Positions 39,663 to 44,500 of a stretch of 45,858 nucleotides of DNA are shown piece by piece. Position 1 is the stretch's first letter, and the number at the start of each line of letters is the position of its first letter. The notes below the pieces were generated by a model. The model saw only the letters and a list, made by a program, of their open reading frames with translations, was not told the DNA's origin and did not search any database. A program made the translations under genes and the position numbers. The DNA is from Armatimonadota bacterium (GTDB taxonomy: Bacteria > Armatimonadota > UBA5829), in NCBI GenBank assembly GCA_012522575.1, contig JAAYKE010000066.1, positions 1 to 45,858 on the forward strand. The letters are read 5' to 3'.

Positions 39663-42600
39663 TCACACGCCCGCGCTCCTCACAAAACTTCGCTGCCCGG
39701 CAATGCGCCGACGCTCCGTGAACGGCTTGATTTCGGTCTTATTATCCGTGCGATAATGCGCGCTCAGCGGTCGAACGCTGCTTGCGATTATCGAAAACCC
39801 GTTGCCCATCTTCTGCGCTTTGCCCTCGATTATCAGCGCAGGGTTATTAAAAATCACCGGGCCGCATTTCTCATACACCTTCGGAAATATCACGCAGTCC
39901 GCAAGGCCGGTCTCATCTTCGAGGGTTATAAACACCACCACTGTGCCGGATCTGGTCGGCGGCCGCATGCAAACGACTACCACTCCAGCCACCTTTACCA
40001 CGGAGTTATCAGCAACCTCCCGCACATCTACGGCCCTTCTCACCCTCGCCTTAGTCAACTTCTTTCGATAGAACTCCATCGGGTGACATATCGTCGACAA
40101 CCCCAGTATCTCATAATCCATCCGCACACGCTCGTGCAGGGTCAATTGAGGGGCATCGGGAAGCTGCATCAGGCGCGCATCGAGGTCATCGACGGCTAGC
40201 CTGTCGAACAGCAGCGAAGAGTTTTGGTCGGCAGCTTTGGGCTTGCGGGCAGCATTAGCTATCTCTCCCAGCAGCCACATCAGCTTGCCGGTCGGAACCT
40301 CAAACGAATCAAACGCTCCGCAGTTTATAAGGTTCTCAATGGTCGATCGGTTGCATTTCGTCCGCAGGCAAAAGTCGGCAAACGAAGAAAACGGCCTTTG
40401 TGCGCGAGCTTGCGTTATCGAAGCTATCTCGGCCTCGCTGATATTTTTAACATGCTTCAGCCCGATGCGTATGCCGCTTATAGTTTGATTATTATCGACA
40501 ACTGCAAACGGGACATCCCGCGCCTCGCTCTCGTTTATATCCATCCCATACAGCTCGATTCCCAGCCTGCGGGCTTCCTCTACGATCACGTTGGCGGGAT
40601 AAAACCCCATTGGCTCGTTATTTAGAATGCCGGCGAAGAATTCGGCAGGGTAGTGGGTTTTGAGATACGCAGTCTGGAACGCAATTTTGGCAAAAGACGC
40701 CGCATGCGCCTTGCAGAATCCATAAGCCGCAAATGCGCGCAGCTTGGAAAACACCTCCTCGGCAACTTGCGAATCCACTCCCTTGTTCTGCGCTCCTTCA
40801 ATAAACGATTTCTTTATTTTCTCCATCTCCTCCTGGCTGCGGTCGGTGGTCATGGCGCGGCGCAGGGAATCGGACTGGCCATAGCTGAACCCCGCCAGCG
40901 CATGCGAGACCGCTATCACCTGCTCCTGATAGAGGATCACGCCGTATGTCTCCTTCAGAACCGGTTCCAGAGCGGGATGACGATAGGTGACCTCCTCCTC
41001 GCCGTGACGACGCGCAATAAACGGGTTGATCATATCCGCCTGCATCGGCCCCGGTCGAAACAGGGATATCTGCGCGATAACATCCTCGAAAACCCGCGGC
41101 TGCAGCCTGCCCAGCAGCCCCCTCATCCCCGGAGATTCTACCTGAAAACACCCTACGGTATTACAGCTTCGCAGGGTCTCATAGGTCGGCTCATCGTCCA
41201 GCGGGATGCTGTCTATATCGAGGCTGACGCCATAGTTTTTCTCAATCATTGGCAGCGCGTCCTCGATCGCTGAGAGGTTGCGCAGACCCAGTATATCCAT
41301 CTTCACCAGACCCAGCGTTTCGATGTCGTCCTTATCGAACTGTGTAACGATCACCCCTTTGGCAGCCCATTCCAGCGGCACGAGGTCGGTCAGAGGGTCT
41401 TTGCTTATTACGACCCCGCAGAGGTGCACGCTCAGATGACGAGGGAAGTCGTCGACTTTTTCGCAAATATCTATCAGAGTCTCCATTCGACTGATTGGCA
41501 GATTAGAGTTTCGCAGCTCAGGATATTTTTCTATAGCCTCCCGAATGCGCTTACCGCCGATGTGGGGCAGGGCGGAGGCGAGTCTGGATATATCATCAGG
41601 CGGAAATCCCATCGCCTTGCCGAGGTCACGAATCGCTGACCGCGCTTTCAGACAGCTTACCGTACACACCATCGCGACCTTATCCTCATTTGTGGTTTCG
41701 ATGCTGGAATCGCGCACAAGCTTTGCGCCGTAGCGATTGTAGATATACTCGATCACCTCATCACGCCGCGCGGCGTCGAAATCGATGTCAATATCGGGCA
41801 TGCCCTTGCGCTCAGGGTTAAGAAACCGCTCGAACAGCAAATTATGCTCGATCGGGTCCGCTATTGTGATCCCAAGGCAGTAAGCGACCAGCGAATCCGC
41901 CGCCGACCCTCTGCCGGAGCATCTGATCCCATTTGACTTTGCATATTGAACAATATCCCTGACCACCAGAAAATACTCCGCAAACCCGAGGTCGTCTATC
42001 ACTTTCAACTCGTGATTAAGTCGCTCCAGCACATTCGGAGTGATCGGTCGATACAGGCGTTCCAGCGCATCGAAGCAAAGTTTGCACAGATAACTATAGG
42101 CGGTCTCACCTTTCGGCAGCGGATAGTCGGGAAAGCGAAACGTCCCCAAACCGAGATTGAGGTCGCACTGATCCGCAACCCATTCGGCATTTTTCAGTGC
42201 CTGGGGATACTTTCTGAACAAGTTCGCCATAGCCTTTGGGCTTTTGAGATAATATTCGCTGTTTTGTTTGCGCAGGGGATGAGTGTCGTCGAGGGTGGTC
42301 AGGGTCTGCACGCAAACGAGCACGTCGTGCACCTTAAAATCATTTTTCTCAGCGTAATGGACGTTATTGGTGGCGACGATTCTCAGGCCAAGCTCCGATG
42401 CAAGCTCGGCAAGTTGAGCATTGAGCAGCGCGGAGCCGGGCAGCATATTATTCTGCATCTCGATCAAAAAACGGTCGCGCCCAAAGATTTCTATCCATTT
42501 CAAAGCGGCCCTCTTCGCCTCATCAATCTTGCCCGCAGCAACCAGCGACGGTATCTCCCCTTTAACACACCCGGACAGGCAAAAAATGTCCTCAGAATGC

Positions 42601-42998
42601 TGTTTTATCGCCTCTGCGCCAGCCGCAGCCTCTCCTTTTTCGTGTGACAACTGAGCGAGGGTGACAATTTTGCACAGGTTCGAGTAGCCATTGAGATTCT
42701 TTGCAATCAGGACGATGTGATGGTTGCGCTTTTCTTTTGTCAAACGGGCAGGATGACAATTCGGATATCGCGGCATCTCCTCTCCAGGCTCAACATCCAA
42801 TTCCACTCCCACAATCGGCTTGATTCCCGCCTTAAGCGCATATTCATAGAACCTCACCGCGCCATACAACCCATTGTGATCCGTAATCGCAAGCGACTTG
42901 CACCCGACAGCTTTTGCGCGATCCGCCAACGCCTGCACGCTGCTGCCGCCGTCAAGAAAACTGAAATTGGAATGGACGTGCAGATGAGTAAATGCCAT
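39663..42998 (-). CDS. dnaE2: Error-prone DNA polymerase III alpha subunit (DnaE2/ImuC type)
   Basis: 1111 residues. C-family polymerase. PHP domain at the start (THLHVHSNFSFLDG, ITDHNGLYG), polymerase palm with aspartates in GMPDIDIDFDAARRDE and LVKMDILGLRNL, finger region GFCKAHAASFAKIAFQTAYLK, and an OB fold (VAGVVVVCMRPPTRSGTVVVF, LEDETGLADCVIFPKVYE). The OB-fold sequence, short C-terminus and operon with a Y-family pseudo-polymerase point to the mutagenic DnaE2/ImuC group rather than the replicative DnaE1. ATG at 42998 is two bases after the DUF6504 stop. Confidence 0.9.
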   Translation of the reverse strand: MAFTHLHVHSNFSFLDGGSSVQALADRAKAVGCKSLAITDHNGLYGAVRFYEYALKAGIKPIVGVELDVEPGEEMPRYPNCHPARLTKEKRNHHIVLIAKNLNGYSNLCKIVTLAQLSHEKGEAAAGAEAIKQHSEDIFCLSGCVKGEIPSLVAAGKIDEAKRAALKWIEIFGRDRFLIEMQNNMLPGSALLNAQLAELASELGLRIVATNNVHYAEKNDFKVHDVLVCVQTLTTLDDTHPLRKQNSEYYLKSPKAMANLFRKYPQALKNAEWVADQCDLNLGLGTFRFPDYPLPKGETAYSYLCKLCFDALERLYRPITPNVLERLNHELKVIDDLGFAEYFLVVRDIVQYAKSNGIRCSGRGSAADSLVAYCLGITIADPIEHNLLFERFLNPERKGMPDIDIDFDAARRDEVIEYIYNRYGAKLVRDSSIETTNEDKVAMVCTVSCLKARSAIRDLGKAMGFPPDDISRLASALPHIGGKRIREAIEKYPELRNSNLPISRMETLIDICEKVDDFPRHLSVHLCGVVISKDPLTDLVPLEWAAKGVIVTQFDKDDIETLGLVKMDILGLRNLSAIEDALPMIEKNYGVSLDIDSIPLDDEPTYETLRSCNTVGCFQVESPGMRGLLGRLQPRVFEDVIAQISLFRPGPMQADMINPFIARRHGEEEVTYRHPALEPVLKETYGVILYQEQVIAVSHALAGFSYGQSDSLRRAMTTDRSQEEMEKIKKSFIEGAQNKGVDSQVAEEVFSKLRAFAAYGFCKAHAASFAKIAFQTAYLKTHYPAEFFAGILNNEPMGFYPANVIVEEARRLGIELYGMDINESEARDVPFAVVDNNQTISGIRIGLKHVKNISEAEIASITQARAQRPFSSFADFCLRTKCNRSTIENLINCGAFDSFEVPTGKLMWLLGEIANAARKPKAADQNSSLLFDRLAVDDLDARLMQLPDAPQLTLHERVRMDYEILGLSTICHPMEFYRKKLTKARVRRAVDVREVADNSVVKVAGVVVVCMRPPTRSGTVVVFITLEDETGLADCVIFPKVYEKCGPVIFNNPALIIEGKAQKMGNGFSIIASSVRPLSAHYRTDNKTEIKPFTERRRIAGQRSFVRSAGV

Positions 42999-43000
42999 TG

Positions 43001-43237
43001 CTAGTCTCGTATTGCGCTTAAACGCCACGCCGAATCGACGTGATCAAAATAAAGCTCATATATCCCGCCGTGTTCGGTCAGCACGCGAAAGAAAGTGCGC
43101 TCGCCGTCGCCATCCCACCACGCCCCGATCAGCCTCCAGCACTCCTGCACCTCCCGCACGCGCTGCATCCTGCCTTGCCATTCAAACGCGATCGGCGCGT
43201 GTCTGCTGTTTAATATAACTTGTATATCTTGCTGCAT
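43001..43237 (-). CDS. DUF6504 family small protein
   Basis: 78 residues: NSRHAPIAFEWQGRMQRVREVQECWRLIGAWWDG, then TFFRVLTEHGGIYELYFDHVDSAWRLSAIRD (read in parts). The W-x-G-x-x-x-x-V-x-E pattern and paired Trp residues match DUF6504, which I know as a companion of DinB/ImuB and DnaE2 genes in Actinobacteria and related groups. The biochemical role is unknown. It starts two bases after the imuB stop and ends two bases before dnaE2, with no ribosome site of its own, so translation is coupled across the operon. Confidence 0.7.
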   Translation of the reverse strand: MQQDIQVILNSRHAPIAFEWQGRMQRVREVQECWRLIGAWWDGDGERTFFRVLTEHGGIYELYFDHVDSAWRLSAIRD

Positions 43238-43239
43238 AT

Positions 43240-44406
43240 CTATATAACCGTCGATTTATGATTGGAGCGCAGCGCATTTGCTGCAAATACCACGCCTTCG
43301 CCGAACCTGTCCGCCAATATATCAATCACGCGATTCAAGCGGCTTGCGCGCTTATTTTCCCCCATCAAAGTAAGCTGGAAGCTCTCCCCCGATGTAAGTC
43401 CGCACAGCTCAATTCGCATCTTATGCACCTCCGTGCCTGCTTCCATCAGCGACCGCAGCAGTCTGTTCAGCGCGTGAGCGATGCTGTAGGAGGAACAAGT
43501 CGGGTTTTTGAACTTAAAACAGGCGGGCTGCATTTGCGAACCCTCCAAAGTCAGCATAATCTCCCCTGCAAGCAAGTTTTTCTTACGCAGCCTGCCAGTG
43601 AGATCGGCCGCCACAGGTTTGATGTACGCCTCAACTTCAACGGGTTCCTTAAGGAAGCAGGGGAACGTATGTTCGGCAATAATAACTTCAGCAGGATAAC
43701 CGGCCTTGACCGGGCTGAAGTCGACCCCCGCAGCCTGTCTGTGGATCACGCTGCCGGCAGGGCCGAACTGTCGCACCATAACAGGCTCTCCAATGCGTGA
43801 AAGTTCGCCGATTCTTGTTACTCCAAGCTCACTTAGACGCCTCTCTATTTTGCCGGTTACGGCTTCAAGGGAGGATACGGGCAGGGGATCAAGGAAAGCG
43901 GCTTCGTTGCCCGGCCTCACCCTGACGAACCATTTGCCTCTGCCTGAAGCGATTTTAGCCAACAATTTATTCGGCGCACAGCCGATCGTAAGCGGCATAT
44001 CCAGTCGAGCCGAGACCTCTGATATGATTTTGGCGCAGAGTTGCGATGGCTCCCCAAAAAGAGCTTCACTTGCGGTTATGTCCATATATGCGCTGCCGAG
44101 GCCATCCGGCTCAAGAAGCGGCGTGAATTGTATAAGTATGTCCAATAATATTCCAAAAACCAGTCTATATGTGCTGTGATCAGACCTGAACAGCATCACG
44201 TCAGGACAGATTCGCTGAGCCTGCCGGACGCTATCTCCCTCGTTTATGCCGAGTTTTGCAGCCTCTTTAGACGCGGAGATAACAACCCCGCCGCTTCCCC
44301 GAGGCTCGGTGACGATGAGAGGTTTGTCGCGCAGGTTAGGTTGTCGGTGCTGCTCGACCGTGGCAAAAAACTTATTCAGCCTGATATGTAGTATATGTCT
44401 GTCCAA
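43240..44406 (-). CDS. imuB: Catalytically inactive Y-family polymerase (ImuB-like)
   Basis: 388 residues of the DinB/ImuB family. Fold markers are intact: FFATVEQHRQPNLRDKPLIV, GVVISASKEAAKLGINEGD, IGCAPNKLLAKIASGRGKW, a helix-hairpin-helix (LSELGVTRIGELSRI) and a little-finger domain (VHKMRIELCGLTSGES...). The metal-binding Asp of the usual HxDMDAFF is Arg9 with Asn11 at the second position, and the Asp-Glu of SxDEAYLD is Gly104-Ser105. Polymerase activity is therefore most unlikely, as in ImuB, which recruits DnaE2 to the clamp. TTG at 44406 is chosen, with GAGGT eight bases upstream. No imuA gene is visible. Confidence 0.85.
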   Translation of the reverse strand: MDRHILHIRLNKFFATVEQHRQPNLRDKPLIVTEPRGSGGVVISASKEAAKLGINEGDSVRQAQRICPDVMLFRSDHSTYRLVFGILLDILIQFTPLLEPDGLGSAYMDITASEALFGEPSQLCAKIISEVSARLDMPLTIGCAPNKLLAKIASGRGKWFVRVRPGNEAAFLDPLPVSSLEAVTGKIERRLSELGVTRIGELSRIGEPVMVRQFGPAGSVIHRQAAGVDFSPVKAGYPAEVIIAEHTFPCFLKEPVEVEAYIKPVAADLTGRLRKKNLLAGEIMLTLEGSQMQPACFKFKNPTCSSYSIAHALNRLLRSLMEAGTEVHKMRIELCGLTSGESFQLTLMGENKRASRLNRVIDILADRFGEGVVFAANALRSNHKSTVI

Positions 44407-44471
44407 GAATAAACCTCAAAGCTATACTATCTCTTGCGCAGCGCTGTAAAGCACAGCGTTCCGGTATTGGG

Positions 44472-44500
44472 ATTATAGGCATCGAACAGATGTTTGTCAA
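44472..44500 (-). promoter_or_regulatory. SOS-type promoter of the imuB-DUF6504-dnaE2 operon
   Basis: Leftward TTGACA (44500-44495), a 17-base spacer and TATAAT (44477-44472) are a perfect sigma-70 consensus. Between them, at 44496-44483, lies a LexA-type box: on the plus strand CGAACAGATGTTTG, matching CGAAC-N4-GTTyG. Repressor bound there would block polymerase. After the -10, a CGCTGT/ACAGCG hairpin (44442-44458) lies in the leader. The spacing to the TTG start is 66 bases from the -10. Confidence 0.85.

Follow-up and report, generated by a model that had tools for sequence, protein, structure and literature searches.

A split-ImuB operon with a catalytically dead Y-family protein, a separate ImuB-C protein and DnaE2 in an Armatimonadota genome

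The window (the whole stretch of DNA that was analysed) comprises 45,858 nt from an Armatimonadota bacterium (UBA5829; GCA_012522575.1, contig JAAYKE010000066.1, positions 1-45,858). It contains an operon that is a split-ImuB module: an inactive Y-family polymerase homolog (iPolY), a standalone ImuB-C domain protein and a DnaE2-type polymerase, with RecA as the presumed replacement for ImuA (Table 1). Based on what is known of the family, we predict with high confidence a translesion-synthesis (mutagenesis) operon under LexA control, in which the dead iPolY serves as a docking platform. The operon type is already known from Deinococcus and other bacteria, and it occurs here in a phylum that has received little study; it is largely ordinary and well supported. 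Mildly new are its spread in the Armatimonadota, the early-branching, DinB-like scaffold and the nearly intact PHP site in DnaE2. A sequence-only reading of the locus had described a mutasome in which an inactive Y-family protein delivers DnaE2. Its coordinates, promoter and LexA-type box are all correct, and the inactive Y-family protein, the LexA-type operon, DnaE2, the lack of ImuA and the probable scaffold role hold; the independent loss of activity and the view of DUF6504 as an extra gene do not.

Table 1. Positions in the window of the operon genes, their motifs and the promoter.
Feature	Position	Strand	Basis
Inactive Y-family polymerase (iPolY / ImuY-like), 388 aa	43240..44406	-	PF00817, PF11799; R9, G104, S105
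Standalone ImuB-C domain protein (DUF6504, PF20114), 78 aa	43001..43237	-	PF20114 1e-12, hhalign, AF2 model
DnaE2-type error-prone C-family polymerase	39663..42998	-	NCBIfam PRK05672, GRGSAADS and PDIDID motifs
Beta-clamp-like motif QLTLM, aa 344-348	43363..43377	-	QLS(L/F)(I/M) conserved in relatives
RecA-NT-like tail, about aa 353-383 (...LNRVIDILADRFGEGVVFA...), predicted RecA docking motif	43258..43350	-	Profile-profile match
Sigma-70-type promoter TTGACA-N17-TATAAT	44472..44500	-	12/12 consensus; same-genus relative
LexA-type operator CGAACAGATGTTTG, between -35 and -10	44483..44496	.	Only CGAACNNNNGTTYG in the window

The genes are ordered iPolY, DUF6504, DnaE2 with a 2-nt gap at each junction, taking ATG 42998 as the DnaE start (the ORF, 43028-39663, opens with GTG at 43028, and ATG 42998 is the probable start). 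The iPolY gene starts with TTG behind a GAGG ribosome-binding sequence, and the TTG start is shared with a same-genus relative (G001; JAAYKG010000194, an Armatimonadetes MAG). Relative to G001, all three genes are under purifying selection (dN 0.13-0.24, dS 1.5-2.2); the operon is therefore no decaying pseudogene.

The genome is an Armatimonadota MAG of 3.06 Mb in 189 contigs, with a completeness of 100. It encodes one other Y-family protein, in which the catalytic D, D and E are intact (contig C88), a DnaE1 separate from the operon's DnaE2 (contig C90), a single RecA (contig C120) and two LexA proteins, LexA1 (contig C31, L033) and LexA2 (contig C39, L034). No ImuA was detectable in the 189 contigs of this genome with an NF033429 / RecA-family search, in which the sole match was RecA itself, in line with the earlier remark that imuA is missing. 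Matches to NF033429 (the ImuA family) in 186 genomes were rejected because none reached the family cut-off, control genomes such as E. coli match too, and the only match in the window's own genome is RecA.

The first gene encodes a protein with Y-family domains (PF00817, 5e-35; PF11799, 5e-10). In an alignment with E. coli DinB and about 40 relatives, the catalytic D8, D103 and E104 of DinB / Pol IV are not present and are replaced by R9, G104 and S105; by this alignment, all three catalytic carboxylates are gone. Asn11, which had also been read as a lost carboxylate, is not diagnostic because active relatives carry Asn as well (VDMNSFF). The catalytic site is dead in 5/5 members of the clade of the window iPolY. 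The pattern of residue loss varies among relatives, with G016 and G020 retaining the Asp of the DE pair. An AF2 model of iPolY (pLDDT 80.9) matches DinB-DNA complexes in the PDB, and this retained fold, together with D101 and D109 near the lost pair, could point to a polymerase that is still active with carboxylates from other positions. We consider this highly improbable, as D101 is not conserved in G016 or G020, D109 also occurs in active enzymes and is not catalytic there, and no acidic residue takes the place of R9. As a dead protein, iPolY would make no DNA and would act as a platform.

The C-terminus of iPolY (SFQLTLMGENKRASRLNRVIDILADRFGEGVVFA) contains two candidate docking motifs. A beta-clamp motif near the C-terminus, proposed earlier as something to look for, has a candidate in QLTLM, which fits the clamp-binding motif, with the counterparts QLSLI and QLSFM in relatives. 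Its last residue is M rather than F, and it sits in a low-confidence tail of the AF2 model. The helix that follows resembles RecA N-termini in a profile-profile comparison, with a probability of 80% when the iPolY clade is aligned with active Y-family relatives (25% with the clade alone) and 4% for the best of 60 column-shuffled controls; a single-sequence comparison of the iPolY tail was not significant (p 0.17). The profile match agrees with PMC6511836, in which this RecA-NT motif was found in most Y-family tails and RecA docking was proposed.

The sequence-only reading stated that the iPolY body resembles DinB more than classic ImuB, and this is borne out by the scores (216 bits against DinB models, only 33 bits for classic ImuB). 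It took this to suggest an independent loss of activity, which would make iPolY a recently killed DinB in a mutasome that arose separately from ImuB; the differences in lost residues among relatives, with the Asp kept in G016 and G020, would also fit. However, in Y-family trees built without the catalytic columns, every inactive protein tested (the window iPolY's clade, other Armatimonadota, D. deserti ImuY and canonical ImuB) falls into one clade (100/99 and 100/100). AU tests reject the union of the window iPolY clade with L008 (p 0.0049), with L009 and L010 (0.00056) and with DinB (0.00075). Because these groupings were chosen with the tree already in view and ImuB has long branches, the rejection is strong without being absolute; long-branch attraction among the fast ImuBs may play a part. 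The inactive proteins also share ImuB-C and DnaE2 as partners. The window iPolY clade is the shortest-branched part of the inactive clade, and this accounts for its likeness to DinB with no need to assume a separate loss. We thus regard an independent loss as unlikely and favor a single origin of the inactive Y-family clade.

Split forms lie on deep branches of the tree and fused forms are nested within, which fits the proposal in PMC6511836 and PMC12926913 that the split form came first. We tentatively suggest, at somewhat less than even confidence, that the Armatimonadota iPolYs are the earliest-branching and least-changed inactive scaffolds, and that ImuB may derive from a RecA-using ancestor with split iPolY and ImuB-C, fusion and ImuA coming later.

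Five lines of evidence identify DUF6504 as the ImuB-C domain. PF20114 hits R. etli ImuB at its C-terminus (aa 401-474) with 8e-5, narrowly missing the curated cut-off, and tblastn with the DUF6504 protein of the window matches the C-terminal part of annotated ImuB and Y-family proteins. With hhalign, the standalone forms match two canonical ImuB C-termini (prob 96.1, E 2.8e-9). In a relative (G060), ImuB-C and the Y-family protein form a natural fusion with DnaE2 directly downstream, and the published ImuB-C of D. deserti (PMC8072749) has the RefSeq label "DUF6504". The AF2 model of the window ImuB-C is all-beta (pLDDT 90.7); a Foldseek search with it found no similar solved structure (best E 0.68), and no closely related PDB structure has been reported for ImuB-C (PMC12926913). 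Aravind et al. described ImuB-C and noted operons with DnaE2 and an inactive DinB (PMC3765255). DUF6504 is the C-terminal part of classic ImuB, and the operon is therefore a known split-ImuB module plus DnaE2, an organisation published previously (PMC6511836, PMC12926913), rather than one with an extra, unusual gene. DUF6504 in the middle, the lack of ImuA and the DinB-like body are features of the split-ImuB kind or of its slow-evolving branch.

The polymerase of the operon scores 956 bits against the error-prone model NCBIfam PRK05672 (cut-off 939), and the DnaE1 of the genome falls below it with 664; the operon's protein passes a DNA polymerase III alpha model, PRK05673, as well. It has the motif GRGSAADS, as in the compared DnaE2s (GRGSA(A/G)(D/N)S), and an intact polymerase motif PDIDID; DnaE1 has VRGSAAGS. 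The GRGSA(A/G)(D/N)S motif is not absolute, since the D. deserti DnaE has GRGSAAGS. In a DnaE2 tree, the window, G001 and G020 proteins form a clade separate from the R. etli-type DnaE2 (DnaE2A), in a set of references without DnaE2X or DnaE2B.

The residues of the PHP metal site are kept in 8/9 positions in the window DnaE2 (D to N in ATNNVHY) and 9/9 in G020 (L088), and are lost in R. etli DnaE2. A nearly intact site is unusual for DnaE2 and makes proofreading in an SOS polymerase possible; the window DnaE2 may thus be less error-prone than assumed. Taken further, the operon could be a repair module rather than a mutagenic one, in which iPolY and ImuB-C recruit a DnaE2 that proofreads and closes gaps with fair accuracy. 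We see little likelihood of this: the D-to-N change may inactivate the window site, PHP sites are mostly altered in DnaE2 with few exceptions (PMC12926913), and the D. deserti cassette, with the same composition, is mutagenic (PMC8072749). A mutagenesis operon is the preferred reading here as well.

The promoter runs from TTGACA (44500) to TATAAT (44472), and its context is identical in G001 and conserved in G016 and G020. CGAACNNNNGTTYG occurs once in the window, with 0.16 expected. Across the phylum, a LexA-type box that deviates from CGAAC-N4-GTTCG at no more than one position is present within 200 nt upstream of 15 of the 19 related gene sets, mostly between -35 and -10; random stretches of the same loci have a box in about 2%, and the binomial value of 1.6e-22 is overstated since the genomes are related. 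At the sequence level, the module thus has an operator in its promoter. In G016, which belongs to the same order, DnaE2 lies apart from iPolY-ImuB-C (L159 on contig C19 and L087 on contig C1) and each part has its own promoter box, that upstream of DnaE2 being TTGACGAACATCTGTTCG. A genome-wide search with the pattern GAACNNNNGTTC gave 37 sites and reflects only background. Those in the vicinity of lexA1 and recA were discarded since they fall within coding regions, and the upstream stretches of recA and lexA1 that were covered contained no LexA-type box.

The recognition helix of LexA1 is SSSSTVH(G/A)HL, and this SSS(T/S)VH type occurs in nearly all of the 8 genomes searched for LexA. G016 has a sole LexA with a helix of this type, and the helix of the single LexA in G165 is slightly altered. 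The LexA1 helix resembles that of B. subtilis LexA, whose operator is of the CGAAC-N4-GTTCG type. The recurrence of this helix, alone in G016, and the likeness to B. subtilis make LexA1 (contig C31) the likely repressor of the operon. LexA2 has a helix (SSLRGATLHL) unlike that of LexA1 and TAGACCGATGTCTA in its own TTGACA promoter, and TAGAC-N4-GTCTA lies just upstream of lexA2 in G001 (L194). Each of the two LexAs may therefore have a regulon of its own with a distinct operator.

Within the Armatimonadota, iPolY, ImuB-C and DnaE2 are found together in G001, G020, G021, G025, G034, G180 and G189. iPolY and DnaE2 co-occur in G000, G001, G016 and G020 and are both absent from G002, G015, G017 and G018. 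G024 has iPolY at a contig end, and DnaE2 was not found in it. A scan of genome contigs with a single protein gave no match. The alignment-based scan gave 7 loci, and its matches in Cohnella, Paenibacillus and Bdellovibrio are active polymerases without this operon. The phylum is absent from the main text of PMC6511836 and PMC12926913.

Several related gene sets have other compositions. In G026 (L094) and G011 (L095), a standalone ImuB-C behind a perfect CGAAC-N4-GTTCG box lies directly upstream of an active Y-family polymerase, which resembles the Geobacter ImuB-C/PolY operon. Loci L099, L100, L101 and L102 (genomes G109, G165, G049 and G196) combine ImuB-C, DnaE2 and a LexA-type box, and no Y-family gene could be recognised ahead of them. 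The Abditibacteriota plasmid pIAD-21 (AP024153, L174) encodes lexA, a small gene, iPolY, ImuB-C and dnaE2, with everything except lexA and dnaE2 annotated as hypothetical. The Thermaerobacter plasmid NZ_CP037896 (L084) has a lone ImuB-C (DUF6504) amid PIN/AbrB toxin-antitoxin genes and an integrase, with no polymerase nearby.

We propose that LexA1 would repress the operon at the box in its promoter and that DNA damage would lift this repression. iPolY may then dock the beta clamp via QLTLM and RecA via its RecA-NT tail; RecA, with no other member of the RecA/ImuA family found in the genome, would substitute for ImuA. DnaE2 would be recruited through the thumb domain of iPolY plus the separate ImuB-C protein, as in published AlphaFold models (PMC12926913), and would carry out error-prone synthesis.

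These results extend the split-ImuB mutasome to the Armatimonadota, with a LexA operator found across the phylum, and link DUF6504, a Pfam name without characterisation, with ImuB-C. Slow-evolving and DinB-like, the scaffold lends itself well to studying how a docking platform arose from a polymerase, and it suits the question, posed as open in PMC8072749, of whether RecA can replace ImuA.

Four known systems can be compared with the operon. The ImuA-ImuB-DnaE2 mutasome of Caulobacter, Mycobacterium and Rhizobium shares the inactive Y-family scaffold, ImuB-C, DnaE2 and SOS control; it differs in that the window has no detectable ImuA, a separate ORF for ImuB-C, a body far more DinB-like and a nearly intact PHP site. 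The contrast with the Caulobacter and mycobacterial cassettes was recognized in the sequence-only reading, and the separate ORFs with their 2-nt gaps agree with it. DnaE2B-iPolY-RecA (Streptomyces scDinB2, Geobacter bemidjiensis gbDinB2) also combines an inactive Y-family protein and DnaE2 without ImuA, but lacks ImuB-C (PMC12926913), which the window operon has. The DnaE2X-iPolY-ImuB-C-RecA module (PMC12926913; Kyrpidia tusciae type, PMC6511836), compared here by its description, has the same composition as the window operon and has in common with it RecA as predicted ImuA substitute and a RecA-NT tail on the Y-family protein. The D. deserti / D. ficus cassette (PMC8072749) shares the order imuY, imuB-C, dnaE2, the inactive Y-family protein, the lack of imuA and LexA control. 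In D. deserti (L184), genes for LexA, the Y-family protein, DUF6504 and DnaE are in direct succession, whereas lexA is unlinked in the window's genome. ImuB-C is 26% identical between the two (E 7e-7) and DnaE 32%; the window iPolY, with its long C-terminal tail, is much diverged from ImuY (24% identity over half its length), and a single-sequence comparison did not show the RecA-NT motif in the ImuY tail. The D. deserti cassette has been studied by experiment and ours by sequence: it is under SOS control and is needed for UV mutagenesis, which is abolished by deletion of imuY, dnaE2 or chromosomal recA, and its induction needs RecA (PMC8072749). By analogy with these deletion phenotypes and the RecA-dependent induction, the window operon likely has the same role in damage-induced mutagenesis.
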